NCBI GenBank assembly: GCA_030426345.1
Contig: JAUHYU010000023.1
Span: 1-55,489, forward strand
Length of the DNA stretch: 55,489 nt
Source of the DNA: Bacteroidia bacterium
Lineage (GTDB): Bacteria; Bacteroidota; Bacteroidia; Cytophagales; Cyclobacteriaceae
Direction of reading: 5' to 3'
Every line of letters begins with the position of its first letter. Positions within the stretch are counted from its first letter, which is position 1. Position numbers and translations under genes: made by a program. The notes under the pieces were generated by a model that was given only the letters and a program-made list of their open reading frames with translations, was not told where the DNA came from and did no database searches. Shown here in pieces: positions 36,709 to 54,672 of this stretch.

Positions 36709-37116
36709 ATGACAATGGACACGATTAAGATAGTTATCCCCTCAATCACTGAAAACATCAGGATTATTGAAAGTTTCATAGATAATGCTAAAGAAAAATT
36801 TAATCTCAATGATGACATTTATGGCAATATTATGATTGCAGTGACTGAGTCAGTAAACAACGCAATCATGCATGGAAATAAAAATGACAAAACTAAAAAT
36901 GTCACACTCAGCCTTTCCTTAAATGATAATGTGATAAACTTTATGATTAAGGATGAAGGAGCAGGTTTTGATTATAGAACTCTTCCCGATCCTACATCAC
37001 CTGAAAACCTCGATAAGCCTTCAGGTAGAGGAATTTTTCTAATGAAACATCTGTCTGACGAAGTTAATTTCGACAATGATGGCAGCGTAGTAGAATTGTC
37101 TTTCTACATGAGCTGA
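36709..37116 (+). CDS. RsbW-like anti-sigma serine/threonine kinase (HATPase_c_2)
   Basis: 135 residues forming one GHKL ATPase domain: N box TESVNNAIMHGNK, G1 DEGAGFD and G2 GRGIFLMKHLSDEV. RsbW/SpoIIAB-type kinases hold a sigma factor and phosphorylate an antagonist. No STAS antagonist or sigma-B-like gene is nearby, as is usual for the Bacteroidetes version, where it sits in housekeeping operons with ybeY. It is 1 bp from both neighbours, so translation is probably coupled. Confidence 0.85.
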   Translation: MTMDTIKIVIPSITENIRIIESFIDNAKEKFNLNDDIYGNIMIAVTESVNNAIMHGNKNDKTKNVTLSLSLNDNVINFMIKDEGAGFDYRTLPDPTSPENLDKPSGRGIFLMKHLSDEVNFDNDGSVVELSFYMS

Positions 37117-37117
37117 C

Positions 37118-37540
37118 ATGGAAAAAATACAGTTTTTCCCTGAAAACATAGACTTTACCATCAAACAAAAAAAGAAATTAAGGGGTTGGGTAAAAAAAAC
37201 CATTGAACACCATCATAAGAAAATTAATACGATCAATTACATTTTTACTTCAGATGCTACTCTATTATCAATTAATAAGGAGTTCCTAACACACAACACA
37301 TATACTGACATCATAACTTTTGACCAGTCCTCTGACCCCAACCAAATAGAGGCAGATATTTATATAAGTGTTGAACGAGTTAAAGAAAATGCTAAAAAAC
37401 TAGCCATTTCGTTTGAAGACGAATTGCATAGAGTAATGATCCATGGCATTCTACATCTTCTTGGCTATAGCGATAAAGAAAAATGTCAGAAGGAAGAAAT
37501 GAGGAAAAAAGAAAATCATTATTTAGCTTTGCGCTTTTAA
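37118..37540 (+). CDS. ybeY: rRNA maturation endoribonuclease
   Basis: 140 residues with the YbeY metal site MIHGILHLLGYSDKE, where the His residues ligate zinc (the usual third His of H-x3-H-x5-H is replaced in the GYSDKEK stretch, as often seen in Bacteroidetes, with Asp as the likely third ligand). YbeY processes the 3' end of 16S rRNA and supports ribosome quality control. TYTDIITFD is the other family block. Last gene of the 31.7-37.5 kb run; two parS sites follow. Confidence 0.9.
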   Translation: MEKIQFFPENIDFTIKQKKKLRGWVKKTIEHHHKKINTINYIFTSDATLLSINKEFLTHNTYTDIITFDQSSDPNQIEADIYISVERVKENAKKLAISFEDELHRVMIHGILHLLGYSDKEKCQKEEMRKKENHYLALRF

Positions 37541-37551
37541 ACCAATCAAAT

Positions 37552-37567
37552 TGTTCCACGTGAAACA
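37552..37567 (+). promoter_or_regulatory. parS centromere-like site 1
   Basis: TGTTCCACGTGAAACA, identical to the parS consensus TGTTNCACGTGAAACA bound by ParB (Spo0J). It lies 12 bp after ybeY. Such sites cluster close to chromosomal origins and direct segregation by ParAB and loading of SMC. Confidence 0.85.
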
Positions 37568-37586
37568 TTGTCGCTCTTGCAATCGG

Positions 37587-37602
37587 TGTTCCACGTGGAA
37601 CA
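37587..37602 (+). promoter_or_regulatory. parS centromere-like site 2
   Basis: TGTTCCACGTGGAACA, a perfect 16-bp palindrome differing from the parS consensus at one base. Centre-to-centre distance from site 1 is 35 bp; mnmG starts 17 bp downstream. The site could also affect mnmG transcription. Confidence 0.85.
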
Positions 37603-37618
37603 ATTATATATAAACAAA

Positions 37619-39481
37619 ATGTTTACAGAATACGATGTAATTGTAGTTGGCGCAGGACATGCAGGGTGTGAAGCTGCTCATGCCGCAGCTACCATGGGTT
37701 CCAAAGTCATGCTTATCACCATGAACATGATGACAATTGCCCAAATGTCATGCAACCCTGCAATGGGTGGCATTGCAAAAGGACAAATTGTACGGGAAAT
37801 CGATGCGCTTGGTGGTATGTCCGGAATAGTATCTGATAAATCCATGATACAATTTAGGATGTTGAACAAGTCTAAGGGGCCTGCAATGTGGAGTCCTAGA
37901 ACACAAAATGACCGCATGCAATTTGCCCAATATTGGCGTGAAGCATTGGAAGCCAATCCTAATGTAGATATGTGGCAAGATATGGTGACGCAATTGCTTG
38001 TAGAAAATAATAGAATTGTTGGAGTAAAAACAGGAATCGGTCAAGAGATTAGATCAAAATCCGTTGTACTAACTAATGGCACATTTCTAAATGGGCTGAT
38101 ACATATCGGTGAAAAAAGATTTGGTGGCGGCCGTACTGCAGAAAAAGCTGCAACCGGCATTACCGAACAGCTTATTGAATTGGGCTTCGAGTCTGGCAGA
38201 ATGAAAACCGGCACCCCGCCTAGACTAGATGGTAGAACCATCAATTACAGCATTCTCGAAGAACAGAAAGGAGATGAAATCCCAGGAAAATTTTCCTATA
38301 TACCTTCGCATAATATCAAAGAACAAAAGAGTTGCTTCATCACTTATACTAATAAAGATGTCCATGAAATTCTAGAAACCGGCTTCGAAAAATCGCCCAT
38401 GTTTACTGGTAGAATCAAAGGTGTAGGACCAAGGTATTGCCCATCCATTGAAGATAAAATAAACCGATTCTCAGAGAGGGACAGACATCAAATATTTGTA
38501 GAACCAGAAGGCTGGAACACTGTGGAAGTTTATGTCAACGGTTTCTCTACTTCACTCCCAGAAGATGTGCAGTACAAAGCCTTGAAACAAATAAAAGGAT
38601 TTGAAAACATCAAAATGTTCCGTCCGGGATATGCCATCGAATACGATTATTTTCCACCAACACAACTAAATCTCACACTTGAAACAAAGTTGTTCGAGAA
38701 CCTATATTTTGCCGGACAGATAAATGGAACTACAGGATATGAAGAGGCTGCAGGGCAAGGTTTAATCGCAGGCATCAATGCATCTCGAAAAACAAATGAC
38801 TTAGCGCCCTTAGTCTTGAAAAGGAGCGAAGCGTATATCGGCGTACTAATTGATGACCTTATCAATAAAGGAACAGATGAACCATATCGCATGTTTACTT
38901 CTAGAGCTGAATATAGAATTCTTCTTCGCCAAGATAATGCTGACCTTCGATTGAGTAAAATTGGATATGAAATAGGACTGGCATCTAAAGAGAGATTAGA
39001 TCTTGTATATCAAAAAATTAAGGGGATCAAAACGCTAACTAATGATCTTAAACATAAAAAAATAGATCCGGTTAACATTAATAGTAGCTTGGAAAGGATA
39101 GGTTCCTCACCAATAAAAGAAAAAACAAGTGTTTTTCAATTGCTAAAAAGACCTGAATTAAATACTGAAAAAATATTACAGTTAGATAGCTCCCTCAAAG
39201 GTTATTTATCAAAATACGATAAGGAAGTAATTGAGCAAGCAGAAATAAATACGATATATGAAAGCTATATTGAAAAAGAACAAAAACTTGTTGAAAAGGT
39301 AGAACACCTAGAAAATTATATTATTAAGGAAAATTTCGACTACCGAAAAATAAAGGCGCTGTCATCTGAAGCCATGGAAAAATTGAGCATTACAAGGCCT
39401 AAAACCATTGGGCAGGCGACAAGGATCAGCGGGGTTTCGCCAGCTGACATTTCCGTAATCATGGTATATCTTGGAAGATAG
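37619..39481 (+). CDS. mnmG: tRNA uridine-5-carboxymethylaminomethyl modification enzyme, FAD subunit
   Basis: Acts with MnmE to place a carboxymethylaminomethyl group on the wobble uridine of tRNAs. ~620 residues from the ATG at 37619 (MFTEYDVIVVGAGHAGCEAA); an upstream TTG frame overlapping the parS sites is not needed. Seen: FAD motif GAGHAGCEAAHAAATMGSK, SCNPAMGGIAKGQIVREIDALGG, GGGRTAEKAATGI, the catalytic-region GRMKTGTPPRLDG and FTSRAEYRILLRQDNADLRLS. Complete. In many bacteria this gene (gidA) lies beside the replication origin, which fits the parS and DnaA-box signals here. Confidence 0.97.
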   Translation: MFTEYDVIVVGAGHAGCEAAHAAATMGSKVMLITMNMMTIAQMSCNPAMGGIAKGQIVREIDALGGMSGIVSDKSMIQFRMLNKSKGPAMWSPRTQNDRMQFAQYWREALEANPNVDMWQDMVTQLLVENNRIVGVKTGIGQEIRSKSVVLTNGTFLNGLIHIGEKRFGGGRTAEKAATGITEQLIELGFESGRMKTGTPPRLDGRTINYSILEEQKGDEIPGKFSYIPSHNIKEQKSCFITYTNKDVHEILETGFEKSPMFTGRIKGVGPRYCPSIEDKINRFSERDRHQIFVEPEGWNTVEVYVNGFSTSLPEDVQYKALKQIKGFENIKMFRPGYAIEYDYFPPTQLNLTLETKLFENLYFAGQINGTTGYEEAAGQGLIAGINASRKTNDLAPLVLKRSEAYIGVLIDDLINKGTDEPYRMFTSRAEYRILLRQDNADLRLSKIGYEIGLASKERLDLVYQKIKGIKTLTNDLKHKKIDPVNINSSLERIGSSPIKEKTSVFQLLKRPELNTEKILQLDSSLKGYLSKYDKEVIEQAEINTIYESYIEKEQKLVEKVEHLENYIIKENFDYRKIKALSSEAMEKLSITRPKTIGQATRISGVSPADISVIMVYLGR

Positions 39482-40363
39482 ATGCTCGAAGAAATTAATC
39501 TTTGCCCCATATGTGACCATAATTCAATTGATACTTATGTCACTTGCACAGATCATATGCTATCAGGAGAAAGCTTTGCTATAGCCCAGTGCGCCAAATG
39601 CTCCTTTCTATTCACCAACCCAAGGCCCGCTGAATCAGATTTGGGCAAATACTATAAATCAGAAGCCTATATTTCTCATGCAAACAAAGCTACTAACCTC
39701 GTTAATCTAGCTTACAAATTGGCTAGAAATTATACTTTGACTAAAAAGATCAAACTGATAAATTCCATTTCATCAGAAAAAACTTTATTGGACTATGGCT
39801 GCGGGTCAGGAGAATTTCTCCAAGCCTGCCAAAAAAAAGCATGGAAAATCCATGGTTTTGAACCCGAAAATACTGCCAGGGAAAAAGCAATATCTATCAC
39901 TAAAAATAACATTTTATCGGATCTAGAAGAACTCAAAAATATAGATCAGGTGTCGTTGATTACTTTATGGCACGTATTGGAGCACATCCCCAGTCTGAAT
40001 TCAACTTTTGATCAGTTAAAAGCCAAATTGACCATCAATGGAAAATTTCTAATTGCTGTTCCCAACTATAAATGCTATGATGCCCAATACTATAAAGAAT
40101 ACTGGGCCGCTTATGATGTACCACGGCATTTGTATCATTTTTCCATGGAAACAATGAAGGACTTTTTACAAAAGCATGGATTGAAAATCCACAAAACAAT
40201 TCCAATGACCTTAGATGCCTATTATGTAAGTCTACTCAGTGAAAAATATAAAAATGGAACTAATAATTATATAAATTCCATTATAACTGGCTATAAATCA
40301 AATACTTATGCTTTAAAAAATCAAAATAACTATTCCAGTCTCATTTATATTGCCGGAAAATGA
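39482..40363 (+). CDS. Class I SAM-dependent methyltransferase with N-terminal zinc-ribbon-like region
   Basis: 293 residues. Two CxxC-type pairs (CPICDHNS... and CAKCSF, ~8-42) suggest a zinc ribbon, followed by a SAM-binding domain with motif I LLDYGCGSGEFLQAC, acidic post-II GFEPE and WHVLEHIPSLNSTFDQL. The substrate is unknown; similar proteins act on surface glycans or lipids. The ATG directly follows the mnmG stop, and its end overlaps the next gene by 4 bp, so the three form an operon. The motif II codons resemble the dispersed repeat in inverted form (39832-39854). Confidence 0.85.
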   Translation: MLEEINLCPICDHNSIDTYVTCTDHMLSGESFAIAQCAKCSFLFTNPRPAESDLGKYYKSEAYISHANKATNLVNLAYKLARNYTLTKKIKLINSISSEKTLLDYGCGSGEFLQACQKKAWKIHGFEPENTAREKAISITKNNILSDLEELKNIDQVSLITLWHVLEHIPSLNSTFDQLKAKLTINGKFLIAVPNYKCYDAQYYKEYWAAYDVPRHLYHFSMETMKDFLQKHGLKIHKTIPMTLDAYYVSLLSEKYKNGTNNYINSIITGYKSNTYALKNQNNYSSLIYIAGK

Positions 40364-42096
40364 TCAAATACGCATTATCTATAATTTCAATTATCCTGGC
40401 CTATCAGCTTTTGGTTTCTTGTGCAAATGTTACAGCTCCAACCGGTGGTCCAAGGGATACCATCGCACCCGTAAGAATCCACACTATTCCCATAGACAAA
40501 AGCATTAATTATGCAGGTAAGACAATCACAATGGAATTCAATGAGCGAATCAAAACAGATAAAATAAAAGAACAGTTGATCATTACCCCACTTATTGAAT
40601 CTGACTATGAATTTAAGATCAAAAAAAATACTATCAAGCTAACCTTTGAAGAACCCTTCCAGGACAGTACCACTTATACACTTAATTTTCGCGAGTCAAT
40701 TCAAGACATCACAGAAGGAAACCCCACGAAGGAAAACAAATTTACTTTTAGTACCGGAAACTATTTAGATTCCATGTCCATAAAAGGATATGTGAAAGAA
40801 CTACTGACATACGACACTTTAGAAAGTATTGTGATCGGAATGTACAAGGCAGACGACACCGTCACAATTGCTAATGGGTCTCCTTATTATTTTACTGAAA
40901 TAGAAGAGGACGGTACTTATCTAATTGAAAATATAAAAAATGGTAACTATCTAATATATGCTTTTGAAGATGCAAACAAAAATCTGAAACTCGAAACTGA
41001 CAAAGAAATATATGGTTTTGTAAAAGACACCATTCGTCTCGATACCATGATGGTTCAGCAAAATATAGACTTGATTCATCTTGATCTATCCAAATTCAAA
41101 ACAATGACTGCCCTACCATCAGGTCAATATTTTGATATCAATTTCAATAAATATATTACCGATTACGATGTAAAACCAATCAACAGTCCTCACCGGTTAT
41201 TAGTCAATTCAGCTAAGGAAAATCGATCACTAAGGATTTATAATAACTTCACAGATATCGATAGTTTGCAAATTTCTTTCACTGCAATAGATTCCATAGA
41301 TACTCAAATATCGGATACGCTATTTGTTAAGTTTATAGAAAGCAAAAGAAAAAAGGAGGAATTTAAGTGGAAACTTTTACCAGAAAACAAAAGTAAAATC
41401 GAACCAAAGTTGGAGGTGACAATTGATTTTAATAAACCGATCGTTGAAGTCAATACAGATAGCATGTTCATTCAATATGACACTACCCGGATCGAATCAA
41501 TACATGATTCACTTTTGCATTGGAATAAACATAAAGACCAATTAACCTTCCTTATCGAAATAGATAAAAGCAAAGCAGACACCATAGCAAAGCAAAGAAT
41601 AAGATTTGAGGAAATGAAAAAAGATTCTTTGCAAAAATTAAATGAAGAAGCTCCAGCCAAAAAACAAATGGCCAAAACACAACAGAAAGATCTTCCTAAA
41701 ATTAATCGTGGCCTTCAATTGTATTTTGGTCGTGGCACTTTCTATTCCGCAGATATGGATACTTCCCGATCAAAGGGATACAACTATGAATTTATCAAAA
41801 AAGAAGATTTTGGAATACAAAAAATAAATGTACAAACTGATTATACCAGCTACACAGTTCAACTCGTTTCAGAAGACTTCAAAATCATAGATGAACGTGA
41901 GAATCAAAAGGAAATTATATTTAAAAATATACCTGCCGGTAAATACAAAATCCGTGTACTAATCGATTCCAATAATGATGGAAAATGGAGTCCCGGCAAC
42001 ATGCTAAAACAAATAGAACCCGAACCCGTTTACATATTTCCTGAGCTACTTGTAATACGAGCCGATTGGGAAACAAGCCTCGATCTCGCATTTTAA
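40360..42096 (+). CDS. Lipoprotein with N-terminal bacterial Ig-like (Big_5) domain
   Basis: 578 residues. Lipoprotein signal ends at QLLVSC (Cys21), followed by the typical ANVTAPTGGPRDTIAP opening and a Big_5 domain (KSINYAGKTITMEFNERIKTDKIKEQLIITP...NFRESIQDITEGN). The C-terminal part has AGKYKIRVLIDSNNDGKWSPGNMLKQIEPE, a pattern shared by Bacteroidetes surface lipoproteins. Function unknown. It is third in the mnmG operon and its stop borders the candidate origin. Confidence 0.8.
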   Translation: MIKYALSIISIILAYQLLVSCANVTAPTGGPRDTIAPVRIHTIPIDKSINYAGKTITMEFNERIKTDKIKEQLIITPLIESDYEFKIKKNTIKLTFEEPFQDSTTYTLNFRESIQDITEGNPTKENKFTFSTGNYLDSMSIKGYVKELLTYDTLESIVIGMYKADDTVTIANGSPYYFTEIEEDGTYLIENIKNGNYLIYAFEDANKNLKLETDKEIYGFVKDTIRLDTMMVQQNIDLIHLDLSKFKTMTALPSGQYFDINFNKYITDYDVKPINSPHRLLVNSAKENRSLRIYNNFTDIDSLQISFTAIDSIDTQISDTLFVKFIESKRKKEEFKWKLLPENKSKIEPKLEVTIDFNKPIVEVNTDSMFIQYDTTRIESIHDSLLHWNKHKDQLTFLIEIDKSKADTIAKQRIRFEEMKKDSLQKLNEEAPAKKQMAKTQQKDLPKINRGLQLYFGRGTFYSADMDTSRSKGYNYEFIKKEDFGIQKINVQTDYTSYTVQLVSEDFKIIDERENQKEIIFKNIPAGKYKIRVLIDSNNDGKWSPGNMLKQIEPEPVYIFPELLVIRADWETSLDLAF

Positions 42097-42459
42097 CCCG
42101 TGTATAACTTATGGATAATCTGAGGATAACCGTTGTTATAAACAACGACAATCTACATTTGAATTATTGAATAAAAACTGTGTGTATAACTTTATGAAAC
42201 TAAAACTAATGCACACCATTATCTACATCTCAATATCTATGTTCGCATAGTTACTAAAAATTAAAAATATGTGCACAAACTATAAACTACTGATTATTAA
42301 AAACTTAGTTGTAGATTAAATGTGGATAACTAAATACTTATTCTGAAGTAGTACACATTGGTTTAAACCAAGAAAAAAAATGACTATTTATCCACTTATC
42401 CACAGTCCTAATATTTAATAATAATATTTATATATATGTATTATATTATTATTACACTT
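42097..42459. other. Candidate chromosomal replication origin (oriC)
   Basis: No ORF. DnaA boxes (TTATNCACA): perfect TGTGTATAA at 42181-42189, TGTGGATAA at 42321-42329 and TTATCCACA at 42396-42404. One-mismatch boxes lie at 42099-42107, 42110-42118, 42121-42129, 42219-42227 and 42388-42396. Right of the last pair is an almost pure A/T stretch (42405-42459) containing a perfect 12-bp inverted repeat TAATAATAATAT (42416-42427) / ATATTATTATTA (42443-42454), a fitting unwinding element. Also CGTTGTT-ATA-AACAACG at 42131-42147 and GGTTTAAACC at 42360-42369. mnmG and two parS sites are 2.6-4.5 kb to the left. Confidence 0.65.
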
Positions 42460-42465
42460 ATGTAT

Positions 42466-44292
42466 ATGTTGACAACCCTGCGATATCGGTTTTTAATTTT
42501 GTCAAGTTGCCTGCTGTTTTCTTCGCTACAGCTCGTAGGTCAGAATGTGTCTGAAGTACAACTGGCCAATCAGTATTTACAGCAGGGAGAAAGTGAAAAG
42601 GCACTGACTCTTTTTGAAAAGCTTGAAAAGAATTCAAAAAATATACCTCTAATCCATGAAAAGTATTATCAGTTGCTACTCATGACCGGTCGCTTTGACC
42701 ATGCAGAAGATTATATTGACAAAACCATCAAGAGATTCCCTTCCAACCTTTATTATCAAATTGACAAGGGGATGATCTATGTGCAGCAAAACGATGCTGC
42801 TTCAGCAAAAAAATATTTTAATAACCTGATAGCACAAATTTCAGAAGATCCCTTCAAAGTTAGGATTACTGCTCAGCATTTTGCCAAAAATCAACAACTG
42901 GAGTACGCTATAGAAACGTACTTACAGAGCAGAAAAAAGATGAATGATCCTTACGCATATTCCATTCAGATGGCAAGCATGTACAGGATGCTGAACAAAA
43001 AGAAAGAGATGATTGAGGAGTATCTCAACTATGCGACTCAAAATCCCAACAATGTCAGTTCCATAAAGAACCTTTTGCAAAACCTCCTGCGTGAAGATGA
43101 GGATTTGGAACTTTTCGAAAATATGATGTATGCGAAAGTTCAAAAATATCCCAATGACATGATTTATAACGAGTTGTTGATTTGGGTGAATGTGCAGCGA
43201 AAAAATTTCCATTCAGCCTTTATCCAGTCTAGAGCAATTGACAAACGGAAACAGTTAAATGGTACAGAAGTCATGGAAATAGGCCGAATTTCCATGGTGC
43301 ACAAAGATTATAAAAATGCAGTGCGCATTTTTGAATATATCATAGACTCATATCCCAATACACCAAACTATCAAATTGCCAGAAGGCTGGTGATCAGTTG
43401 CCGCGAAGAAATCGTAAAAAATACATTTCCGGTGCAAGAGGTGGATATTAGAAAACTAGTCAATGATTATCGACAGTTGGTAAAGGATATTGGATTGAAT
43501 CAAAACACCATAGAGGCCCAGCGCAGTGAGGGTCTGTTATATGCCTTCTATCTCCATGATCAGGATTCGGCGATTATGATATTAGAGCGCATCATCACAA
43601 CTCCAAGAATCAGTAAATCCATTATTGACAAAACCAAGTTGGATTTAGGTGATATATATCTACTCATCGGTGAGCCATGGGAATCTACATTATTGTATTC
43701 ACAGGTAGAAAAATCGAGCAAGGATACGCCGATAGGCTATGAGGCAAAACTGAAAAATGCGAAACTTTCCTATTATCGAGGCGATTTTGCACTGGCTCAA
43801 AGTCATCTTGATATTTTGAAAATGGCAACAACCCGTGAAATTGCCAACAACGCCATGGCGCTCAGTATGCTGATCAAGGACAACACACAGCTGGATACGA
43901 GCGATGTAGCTATGAAAAAATTTGCAGATATTGATTTGCTTATATTTCAGAATAAGAAATTTGCAGCGATGGATTCCCTTCAAGAATTAAAAGCCGAATT
44001 TCCATCCCATCCTCTTGCAGATGAGATTTTATATCGACAAGCAAACCTCAACATGGAAATGGGAAAATTTGAAATGGCGATTTCTGAACTGCAGCAGGTA
44101 GTCGATAAGTTTGGAGAGGATATTTTAGGAGATGACGCACTTTTCCTGATAGGGACCATTTATGAAGACCAGCTTAAAAATAAAGATAAGGCTAAGGAGA
44201 TCTATCAGGAATTTCTCGTCAAATACCCCGGAAGCAACAAGGCGGCCGAGGCCAGAAAGCGCTTCCGAACCCTACGCGGGGATTTTTTATAG
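42466..44292 (+). CDS. Secreted tetratricopeptide-repeat protein
   Basis: ~608 residues from the ATG at 42466, which begins a normal signal peptide (MLTTLRYRFLILSSCLLFSS...VGQ); ATGs at 42436 and 42460 are in frame but the first lies within the AT-rich unwinding element. TPR helices run through the protein (EVQLANQYLQQGESEKALTLFEKLEKN; DEILYRQANLNMEMGKFEMAISELQQVVDKFGEDILGDDALFLIGTIYEDQLKNKDKAKEIYQEFLVKYPGSNKAAEARKRF). The C-terminal repeats resemble YbgF/BamD-type TPRs, suggesting an envelope scaffold. Partner unknown. Confidence 0.85.
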   Translation: MLTTLRYRFLILSSCLLFSSLQLVGQNVSEVQLANQYLQQGESEKALTLFEKLEKNSKNIPLIHEKYYQLLLMTGRFDHAEDYIDKTIKRFPSNLYYQIDKGMIYVQQNDAASAKKYFNNLIAQISEDPFKVRITAQHFAKNQQLEYAIETYLQSRKKMNDPYAYSIQMASMYRMLNKKKEMIEEYLNYATQNPNNVSSIKNLLQNLLREDEDLELFENMMYAKVQKYPNDMIYNELLIWVNVQRKNFHSAFIQSRAIDKRKQLNGTEVMEIGRISMVHKDYKNAVRIFEYIIDSYPNTPNYQIARRLVISCREEIVKNTFPVQEVDIRKLVNDYRQLVKDIGLNQNTIEAQRSEGLLYAFYLHDQDSAIMILERIITTPRISKSIIDKTKLDLGDIYLLIGEPWESTLLYSQVEKSSKDTPIGYEAKLKNAKLSYYRGDFALAQSHLDILKMATTREIANNAMALSMLIKDNTQLDTSDVAMKKFADIDLLIFQNKKFAAMDSLQELKAEFPSHPLADEILYRQANLNMEMGKFEMAISELQQVVDKFGEDILGDDALFLIGTIYEDQLKNKDKAKEIYQEFLVKYPGSNKAAEARKRFRTLRGDFL

Positions 44293-53232: not shown

Positions 53233-54672
53233 ATGAAAAAACAGATTTCACAAAATAGAATTTTTTCTATTCTAGTTGTTGCCGCAATTTTATTTTTATG
53301 GTCTTGCTCCAAGCAAGAGAAGGCGGTTGATCCAGCATCAATTCAAGTCTCCGGCGAGCTGAAACCGGAACTTACCGCGCCACCTAAAGTTCCTTTTCCA
53401 GTAGGAAACAGGCCTGCTAAAAAGTTGATTATTGACATGGAAATTCTGGAACAAGAAGGTGAAATGGTCAATGGTGTCAAATATATCTATTGGACTTTTG
53501 GGGGAAGTGTCCCGGGAAGTTTTATCAGGACACGGATTGGTGATGAAGTGGAATTTACGTTGAAAAACCATCCTGACAATAAACTCCCTCACAATATTGA
53601 TTTGCATGCTGTCACCGGACCCGGCGGAGGGGCGGAGTCTTCTTTCGTAGCACCAGGTCATGAAATAACATTTTCATTTAAGACGCTCAATCCTGGTTTA
53701 TATGTATATCACTGTGCTACTGCACCTGTGGGGATGCATATTGCCAATGGTATGTATGGGTTGATTTTAGTAGAACCAGAAGGAGGATTAGCTCCTGTAG
53801 ATAAGGAATACTACATCATGCAGGGTGATTTTTATACCAAAGGTGCCCACGGACAGCCGGGACTGCAGCCATTTGATATGCAGAAGGCTGTCGATGAAAA
53901 TGCCGATTATGTAGTGTTTAATGGCAAAGTAGGAGCTCTAAATGGAGACAATGCCATCACCGCTAAGGTTGGGGAAACGGTTCGGTTATTTGTTGGTAAT
54001 GGTGGACCAAATTTGGTTTCTTCTTTTCATGTAATAGGGGAAATATTTGATAGGGTACATATCGAAGGTGGCAGTGCCATCAATGAAAATGTACAAACCA
54101 CGCTGATCCCTGCCGGTGGAGCAGCTATCGTAGAGTTCAAGGTGGATGTGCCGGGAACGTTTATTCTTGTAGATCACTCTATTTTCCGAGCATTTAACAA
54201 AGGTGCTTTGGGAATGCTGAAAGTTCAAGGTGAAGAAGACAAAACGATCTATTCGGGCAAAAAACAAGAAGGTATCTATAATCCGGAAGGGCGTGCTTTG
54301 CAATCTATGCCTGGCGAAGCACCTGCAATACCAACTGCCACATCAGCTGCAGAAAGGGTAAAACTAGGAAAGCAAATTTATTCGCAAACTTGCTTTGCCT
54401 GCCACCAGGGTGAAGGTCAAGGAATACCAGGAGTATTCCCTCCTTTGGCAAATTCGGATTATCTCAATGCAGATGTTGATCGGGCCATTGACATCGTACT
54501 CCATGGAAAAACAGGGGAAATTACGGTAAACGGAGAAAAGTACAACAGTGTGATGACAGCTCAAACCCTCAGCGATGAGGAAGTTGCCAACGTACTTACA
54601 TTTATTTACAACAATTGGGGAAATAATAAAACTGAAGTGACTCCGCAAATGGTTGCTAAGGTCAAAAAATAA
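53233..54672 (+). CDS. nirK: Copper nitrite reductase fused to cytochrome c
   Basis: Reduces nitrite to nitric oxide in denitrification. 479 residues. Lipoprotein signal ends at FLWSC (Cys25). Two cupredoxin domains follow: His120, His125 ([10 protein letters not shown]), His160-Cys161 ([16 protein letters not shown]), His169 and Met174 supply the type 1 and type 2 copper ligands, with the second-domain His in [16 protein letters not shown]-terminal cytochrome c (~370-460) has CFACH (387-391) and a distal Met in [14 protein letters not shown], so electrons can be delivered directly from the heme. The FNR-type site upstream suggests anaerobic control. The FGE-like gene starts 6 bp after its stop. 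Confidence 0.93.

Follow-up and report, generated by a model that had tools for sequence, protein, structure and literature searches.

The question raised by this locus is whether the gap at 42097-42459, bounded by a Big_5/DUF2141 gene on its left and a TPR protein gene on its right, both on the plus strand, is the place at which replication of the chromosome starts. We addressed it using the whole stretch of DNA in which the gap lies, here called the window (55,489 nucleotides; contig 174 in a draft genome of 182 contigs and 5.1 Mb), together with related genomes, for which our own labels are given below (G for genomes, L for loci). As judged from the sequence of the gap and its comparison with relatives, 42097-42459 is very probably the chromosomal replication origin, oriC. 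An mnmG-linked oriC had been proposed in the initial annotation, and that proposal was supported by the box array, by conservation, by the skew of related chromosomes and by the lack of any skew change at dnaA.

DnaA boxes, AT-rich tract and neighbouring genes

With a DnaA box defined as TTATCCACA or TTATACACA having at most one mismatch, the gap was found to contain nine boxes between 42099 and 42404, three perfect and six near-perfect, which is one near-perfect box more than the at least three perfect and five near-perfect ones originally noticed. A left group at 42099-42144 holds four boxes with one mismatch each (42099, 42110 and 42121 on the minus strand and 42136 on the plus strand), followed by a perfect box TTATACACA at 42181-42189 (minus strand), a near-perfect box TTATCTACA at 42219-42227 (plus strand), a perfect box TTATCCACA at 42321-42329 (minus strand) and, finally, two tandem boxes set 8 bp apart at 42388-42404 on the plus strand, TTATCCACT at 42388 and the perfect TTATCCACA at 42396. 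Scanning the whole window in 400-bp windows at 50-bp steps gave no other one with more than three boxes outside this cluster, and the cluster was the sole one of its kind in the window; the initial annotation had named it as the only such gap near mnmG and the parS sites. Dinucleotide-preserving shuffles of 42097-42459 (n = 2000) had on average 0.74 boxes and at most 5, with nine boxes reached in 0/2000 and three perfect boxes likewise in 0/2000, showing that the cluster is beyond chance.

The tandem boxes abut an AT-rich tract at the right end of the gap (42405-42459), which is a candidate unwinding element and, in terms of sequence composition, fit for that role. The tract of about 55 bp and the 12-bp perfect inverted repeat described before were both recovered, with 49 of the 55 bases being A or T and with the repeat arms at 42416-42427 and 42443-42454; the tract also contains TAATATTTAATAATAATA. 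The AT maximum of the window, 55-bp windows with 50 or 51 A/T, was located here as well, with every start at 42406-42416.

The tandem boxes at 42388/42396 are, furthermore, a candidate platform of an unwinding module. The BUS model of Bacillus subtilis, as presented in part of PMC8287927, has a DnaA box or tandem boxes, then a spacer of at most 16 bp and then at least three trinucleotides with a fixed middle base. The gap is alike when read by hand, having the two boxes, 10 bp and then TTA-ATA-ATA-ATA-TTT-ATA, where the middle base of the trios is T on the plus strand and A on the other strand, the rule being a loose one in AT-rich DNA. It differs in that the tract is made of TAATA/TAATAATA, whereas the consensus given in that part of PMC8287927 is GAT, and in that the trios stand in two phases with one base between them.

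A lineage signature, TCCACA-N(2-4)-TAATA-NN-TAATAATA, lies at 42399-42423 on the plus strand and is present as a single copy in this genome. Among 98 genomes of the family, the strict signature gave 11 matches in 11 genomes, one site each and all directly upstream of the TPR gene, and its reversed control gave no match in the 98; the remaining 87 of the 98 had no strict match, with looser forms recognizable in many of the loci that we fetched. An origin should occur once per chromosome and in a conserved place, and this was what we found, with uniqueness judged from the strict motif (11/98 genomes) and not from box clusters. A looser rule of our own making (box, spacer, TAAT) was matched in 31/77 loci, compared with 9/77 on the opposite strand and 26/1540 in shuffles, and we count it against the oriC reading as only 31/77 loci carry it.

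To the left of the gap lies a row of four plus-strand genes, all transcribed towards it, namely ybeY (37118-37540), mnmG/gidA (37568-39481 as the longest open reading frame), a gene with a methyltransferase domain (39482-40363) and the Big_5/DUF2141 gene (40360-42096) that adjoins the predicted origin. On the right, the open reading frame of the TPR protein gene (plus strand) extends from 42436 to 44292, and its start is more likely at 42460 or later. Two parS sites, at 37552-37567 and, as a perfect palindrome, at 37587-37602, match TGTTYCACGTGRAACA exactly and are the sole exact matches in the 5.1-Mb draft. Both are located about 4.5 kb from the gap and shortly precede the family-matching part of mnmG; because this match begins only at 37631, the true start of mnmG is probably placed after both parS sites. 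Two further genes of the window may be mentioned, one an HATPase_c_2 gene (36709-37116), presumably RsbW-like, immediately 5' of ybeY, and the other a copper nitrite reductase (53233-54672) in which a stretch at the C-terminus is similar to part of CcoP, a subunit of cytochrome oxidase.

Conservation of the box cluster and its anchor genes

Using the TPR protein to search the 98 genomes of the family, we fetched 30 loci including that of the window itself (L002). At least three boxes were found upstream of TPR in 28 of the 28 loci with usable upstream DNA, L012 and L027 being left out since contig ends cut them. In a second set of 80 named loci, overlapping in part with the first (L092 / G083), 77 had 700 bp upstream, and these contained on average 5.83 boxes per 750 bp as compared with 0.44 per 750 bp elsewhere in the same loci, with at least four boxes in 59, at least three in 65 and two or fewer in 12. 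The best named relatives of the TPR protein came from MAGs titled Cytophagales, Bacteroidetes or Cyclobacteriaceae bacterium, the next ones from Splendidivirga, Imperialibacter and Fulvivirga, and lower ones from Chryseolinea and Reichenbachiella.

We examined the gene order in the 64 named loci with 7 kb upstream. In 60 of these Big_5 was next to TPR, with mnmG behind it and reading towards the gap. The synteny of the mnmG/Ig-like/TPR block pointed to in the initial annotation could thereby be confirmed for Cytophagales relatives, in which both the box cluster and the anchor operon are conserved. The annotation was also correct about the direction of the genes to the left, which would be head-on with the leftward fork, but mnmG reads towards the gap in 60/60 syntenic loci, so that the head-on orientation characterises the group as a whole and is not an oddity of this genome. 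With the operon in place, 54/60 loci had at least three boxes and 6/60 had one or two (L137, L140, L150, L153, L158 and L168). Where TPR occurred without the operon genes (L156, L157, L166 and L167), the counts were 0, 0, 1 and 1 boxes, the cluster being absent in 4/4, and in three complete genomes of the same family having no strong TPR match (G047, G096 and G085) the cluster was kept right behind Big_5, in 3/3 examined. Because the cluster is kept without TPR and missing where TPR stands alone, the TPR gene is a replaceable neighbour, and the oriC site belongs to the ybeY-mnmG-methyltransferase-Big_5 end.

The TPR gene was rejected as the anchor; in other families, 17 loci (a count that excludes the partial match L180 and L190-L199) carried 0-2 boxes upstream of it. 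Three genomes from other families (G190, G130 and G099) had smaller box clusters at distances of about 3-11 kb from mnmG, and the best cluster of G104 was located 17 kb from mnmG. In family f6 (G153, G126 and G198) no canonical DnaA-box cluster was found in 40 kb around mnmG, and the origin of that family may use other boxes or be located farther off; G153 has parS at mnmG despite the absent canonical cluster.

The linkage between parS and mnmG extended more widely. An exact parS was present in 51 of 80 genomes sampled evenly across the class; among the 42 for which positions were listed, 37 had parS at most 1.2 kb from mnmG, before or behind the gene, and five of the sampled genomes (G109, G266, G238, G216 and G230) had one parS on either side of it. 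The remaining 5/42 comprised two with parS 25 and 43 kb off, two with parS and mnmG on different contigs and one without an mnmG call. Among the named loci of Cytophagales type, 37/64 had an exact parS, located 4.6-6.2 kb upstream of the TPR match. One of the 37 genomes with parS close to mnmG (G239) has 12 parS sites, most of them away from mnmG; seven exact copies spaced 98-99 bp form a tandem array (contig 24, 13202-13810, and contig 40, 54060-54174), and five further copies are spread over three other contigs.

As a wider proposition, to which we give slightly less than an even chance, the class Bacteroidia may keep an old chromosome-start module round mnmG, with parS at mnmG, oriC a few kb off and uncoupled from dnaA, neighbouring genes head-on and, in Cytophagales, a specific signature of tandem box plus TAATA-NN-TAATAATA.

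Skew of related chromosomes and the position of dnaA

The genome studied here is a draft of 182 contigs, and skew on the chromosome scale was tested on four sampled complete chromosomes of the same family (G012, G036, G028 and G030), with twenty 20-kb samples each for G012 and G036 and 16 samples for G028. In G012 and G036 there was a clean change from negative to positive skew at the TPR/mnmG locus, with the reverse change near the antipode. One G012 sample, at 2.20 Mb, deviated in the sign of its raw skew; 95% of its coding sequence is on the minus strand, and at third positions it conformed to the other samples. In G028 the third-position skew of plus-strand genes went from -0.22 to +0.13 across the locus, minus-strand genes turned about 40 kb before it and the raw skew had no sharp step there; away from the locus the two halves differed as expected, and one sample at 5.87 Mb had the opposite sign. 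The raw skew of G030 was negative in every sample from 1.2 to 3.72 Mb and positive from 3.74 Mb through 0.2 Mb, with one exception near zero (-0.002 at 3.82 Mb), and its third-position signal was weak.

A skew minimum far from the locus had been named at the outset as the result that would speak against an origin; in these relatives the switch was instead at or close to the locus in all four chromosomes, although more weakly so in G028 and G030. The change from minus to plus with reversal at the antipode, as expected of an oriC, was hence observed in relatives only, less cleanly in G028 and G030 and with a pooled fine position about 8 kb off. The raw GC skew of the window itself was discarded as a test; its cumulative minimum, at 11-13 kb, is misleading because the genes right of 18 kb are mostly plus-strand ones.

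For the fine position of the switch we determined gene-wise changepoints on third-position skew, with intervals that are approximate. In the window the changepoint fell between the Big_5 and TPR genes (42296, the midpoint between the gene centres, at a resolution of one gene), with 2/300 permutations as good. For G036 it came out at +14.9 kb in the direction of mnmG, and its interval (+19 bp to +16 kb) reaches the gap. In G012 and G091, two species of one genus, the changepoints were 7.8 and 10.6 kb towards mnmG, respectively, and both intervals exclude the gap, while in G030 the third-position skew did not switch at the gap (amplitude -0.001) and its best point was at -97.6 kb, with 35/300 permutations as good. 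With the five pooled, the best point was displaced by 8.1 kb towards mnmG (interval -10.6 to -7.3 kb), and this offset of about 8 kb is the chief finding that speaks against the exact coordinates of the origin. We take it to reflect gene-specific composition noise, because no second box cluster is present there in the window.

An origin beside dnaA was also considered and was rejected. In this draft dnaA is on a different contig from the gap, its locus has one near-box in 3.1 kb, and the samples flanking dnaA had the same sign in all four chromosomes (G012, G036, G028 and G030), with no skew change across the gene. Nor was the origin candidate found within a few kb of dnaA in six relatives, where the distance between cluster and dnaA was 0.86-2.4 Mb (G036, G028, G030 and G012), 2.2 Mb (G091) and 3.3 Mb (G071). 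The DnaA protein of this genome contains GGRDHSTVIHA, which we take to be the box-recognition motif.

Alternative readings and comparison with known origins

Three other explanations for the box cluster were weighed. It could be a DnaA reservoir or regulatory array, for which datA is the comparison, with forks starting elsewhere within about 10 kb, for instance left of mnmG and parS. The pooled changepoint on the mnmG side and the intervals of G012 and G091 that exclude the gap would agree with such an arrangement, which we nevertheless regard as improbable: no second box cluster exists in the window; in 200-kb stretches, scoring a perfect box as 3, the best score elsewhere was 7 vs 16 in G036 and 4 vs 13 in G012; both the window and G036 have a changepoint compatible with the gap; and the cluster comes with an AT tract and a motif found once per genome.

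It is far less probable still that the origin lies beside dnaA and that the gap serves the TPR gene as a promoter under DnaA control. Boxes are often close to the start of that gene, and DnaA may well regulate it in addition, but the constant skew sign across dnaA in all four chromosomes sampled, the single near-box at the dnaA locus of this genome, and the persistence of the cluster without TPR together with its absence at TPR without the operon all argue against this explanation. Least probable, to a degree that we consider negligible, is a cluster due to chance or AT-rich composition; the gap and the DnaA box motif are both rich in A and T, yet none of the composition-preserving shuffles reproduced the cluster, and it is conserved across genera.

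The predicted oriC is a standard DnaA-type origin, of ordinary type and in a conserved place away from dnaA. By analogy with such origins, we infer that DnaA would load on the box array and that the tandem boxes at 42388/42396 would seed a DnaA filament, which would extend into the TAATA tract along one of its strands and open it, whereupon the helicase could enter and two forks depart. The left fork would then meet the mnmG genes head-on, and ParB at the two parS sites near mnmG, together with SMC, would presumably segregate the new origins.

The oriC of E. coli is linked to gidA (mnmG) and has a DnaA-box array with an AT-rich unwinding element, features that it shares with the present locus. 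It differs in having mnmG directly beside it and reading away, whereas here mnmG ends 2.6 kb off and reads towards oriC, and parS sites are present; to our knowledge, E. coli is without ParB/parS.

Origins adjacent to mnmG are not wholly new in the phylum, to which the present analysis contributes the landmark, the motif occurring once per genome and the linkage of parS to mnmG. In Flavobacteriaceae, the relevant parts of two reports give oriC as predicted beside mnmG by Ori-Finder 2022, consistent with GC skew, for Mariniflexile litorale (PMC11278836) and Algorimicrobium (PMC12843772); for Mariniflexile, the text of PMC11278836 has dnaA out of line with the skew plot, and in one figure legend of that paper the labels for oriC and ter are interchanged. 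These predictions are alike in their mnmG-adjacent oriC but concern other families, and the comparison covers the place of oriC and its agreement with skew. For Prevotella intermedia, part of PMC4755523 describes a cluster of boxes located, as in the present case, where the skew switches and far from dnaA. Its authors, citing DoriC, state that an oriC far from dnaA is common in Bacteroidetes. In Cytophaga hutchinsonii, also of the Cytophagales, plasmids are labelled oriC in the section of PMC5288383 concerned; the comparison extends to that label and to the shared order. The listings of a literature search pointed to no account of the locus in Cyclobacteriaceae.

The 3' end of the ybeY-mnmG-methyltransferase-Big_5 row, with parS about 4.5-5 kb off, offers a gene-based landmark for oriC in drafts and MAGs of Cytophagales, useful as Bacteroidota origins are poorly mapped and dnaA is usually taken as the marker. 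With it, assemblies could be rotated correctly, growth rates could be estimated from coverage and small oriC plasmids could be made. With regards to rotation, a dnaA match was found in the first 1.2 kb of G028, G047, G085, G071, G099, G126, G198, G100 and G207, assemblies that therefore start at dnaA. The evidence for an origin is located about 1 Mb from this start in G028, and the box cluster is 3.3 Mb away in G071; dnaA-rotated assemblies whose origin is probably elsewhere are G028, by the evidence for its origin, and G047, G085 and G071, by the position of the cluster.
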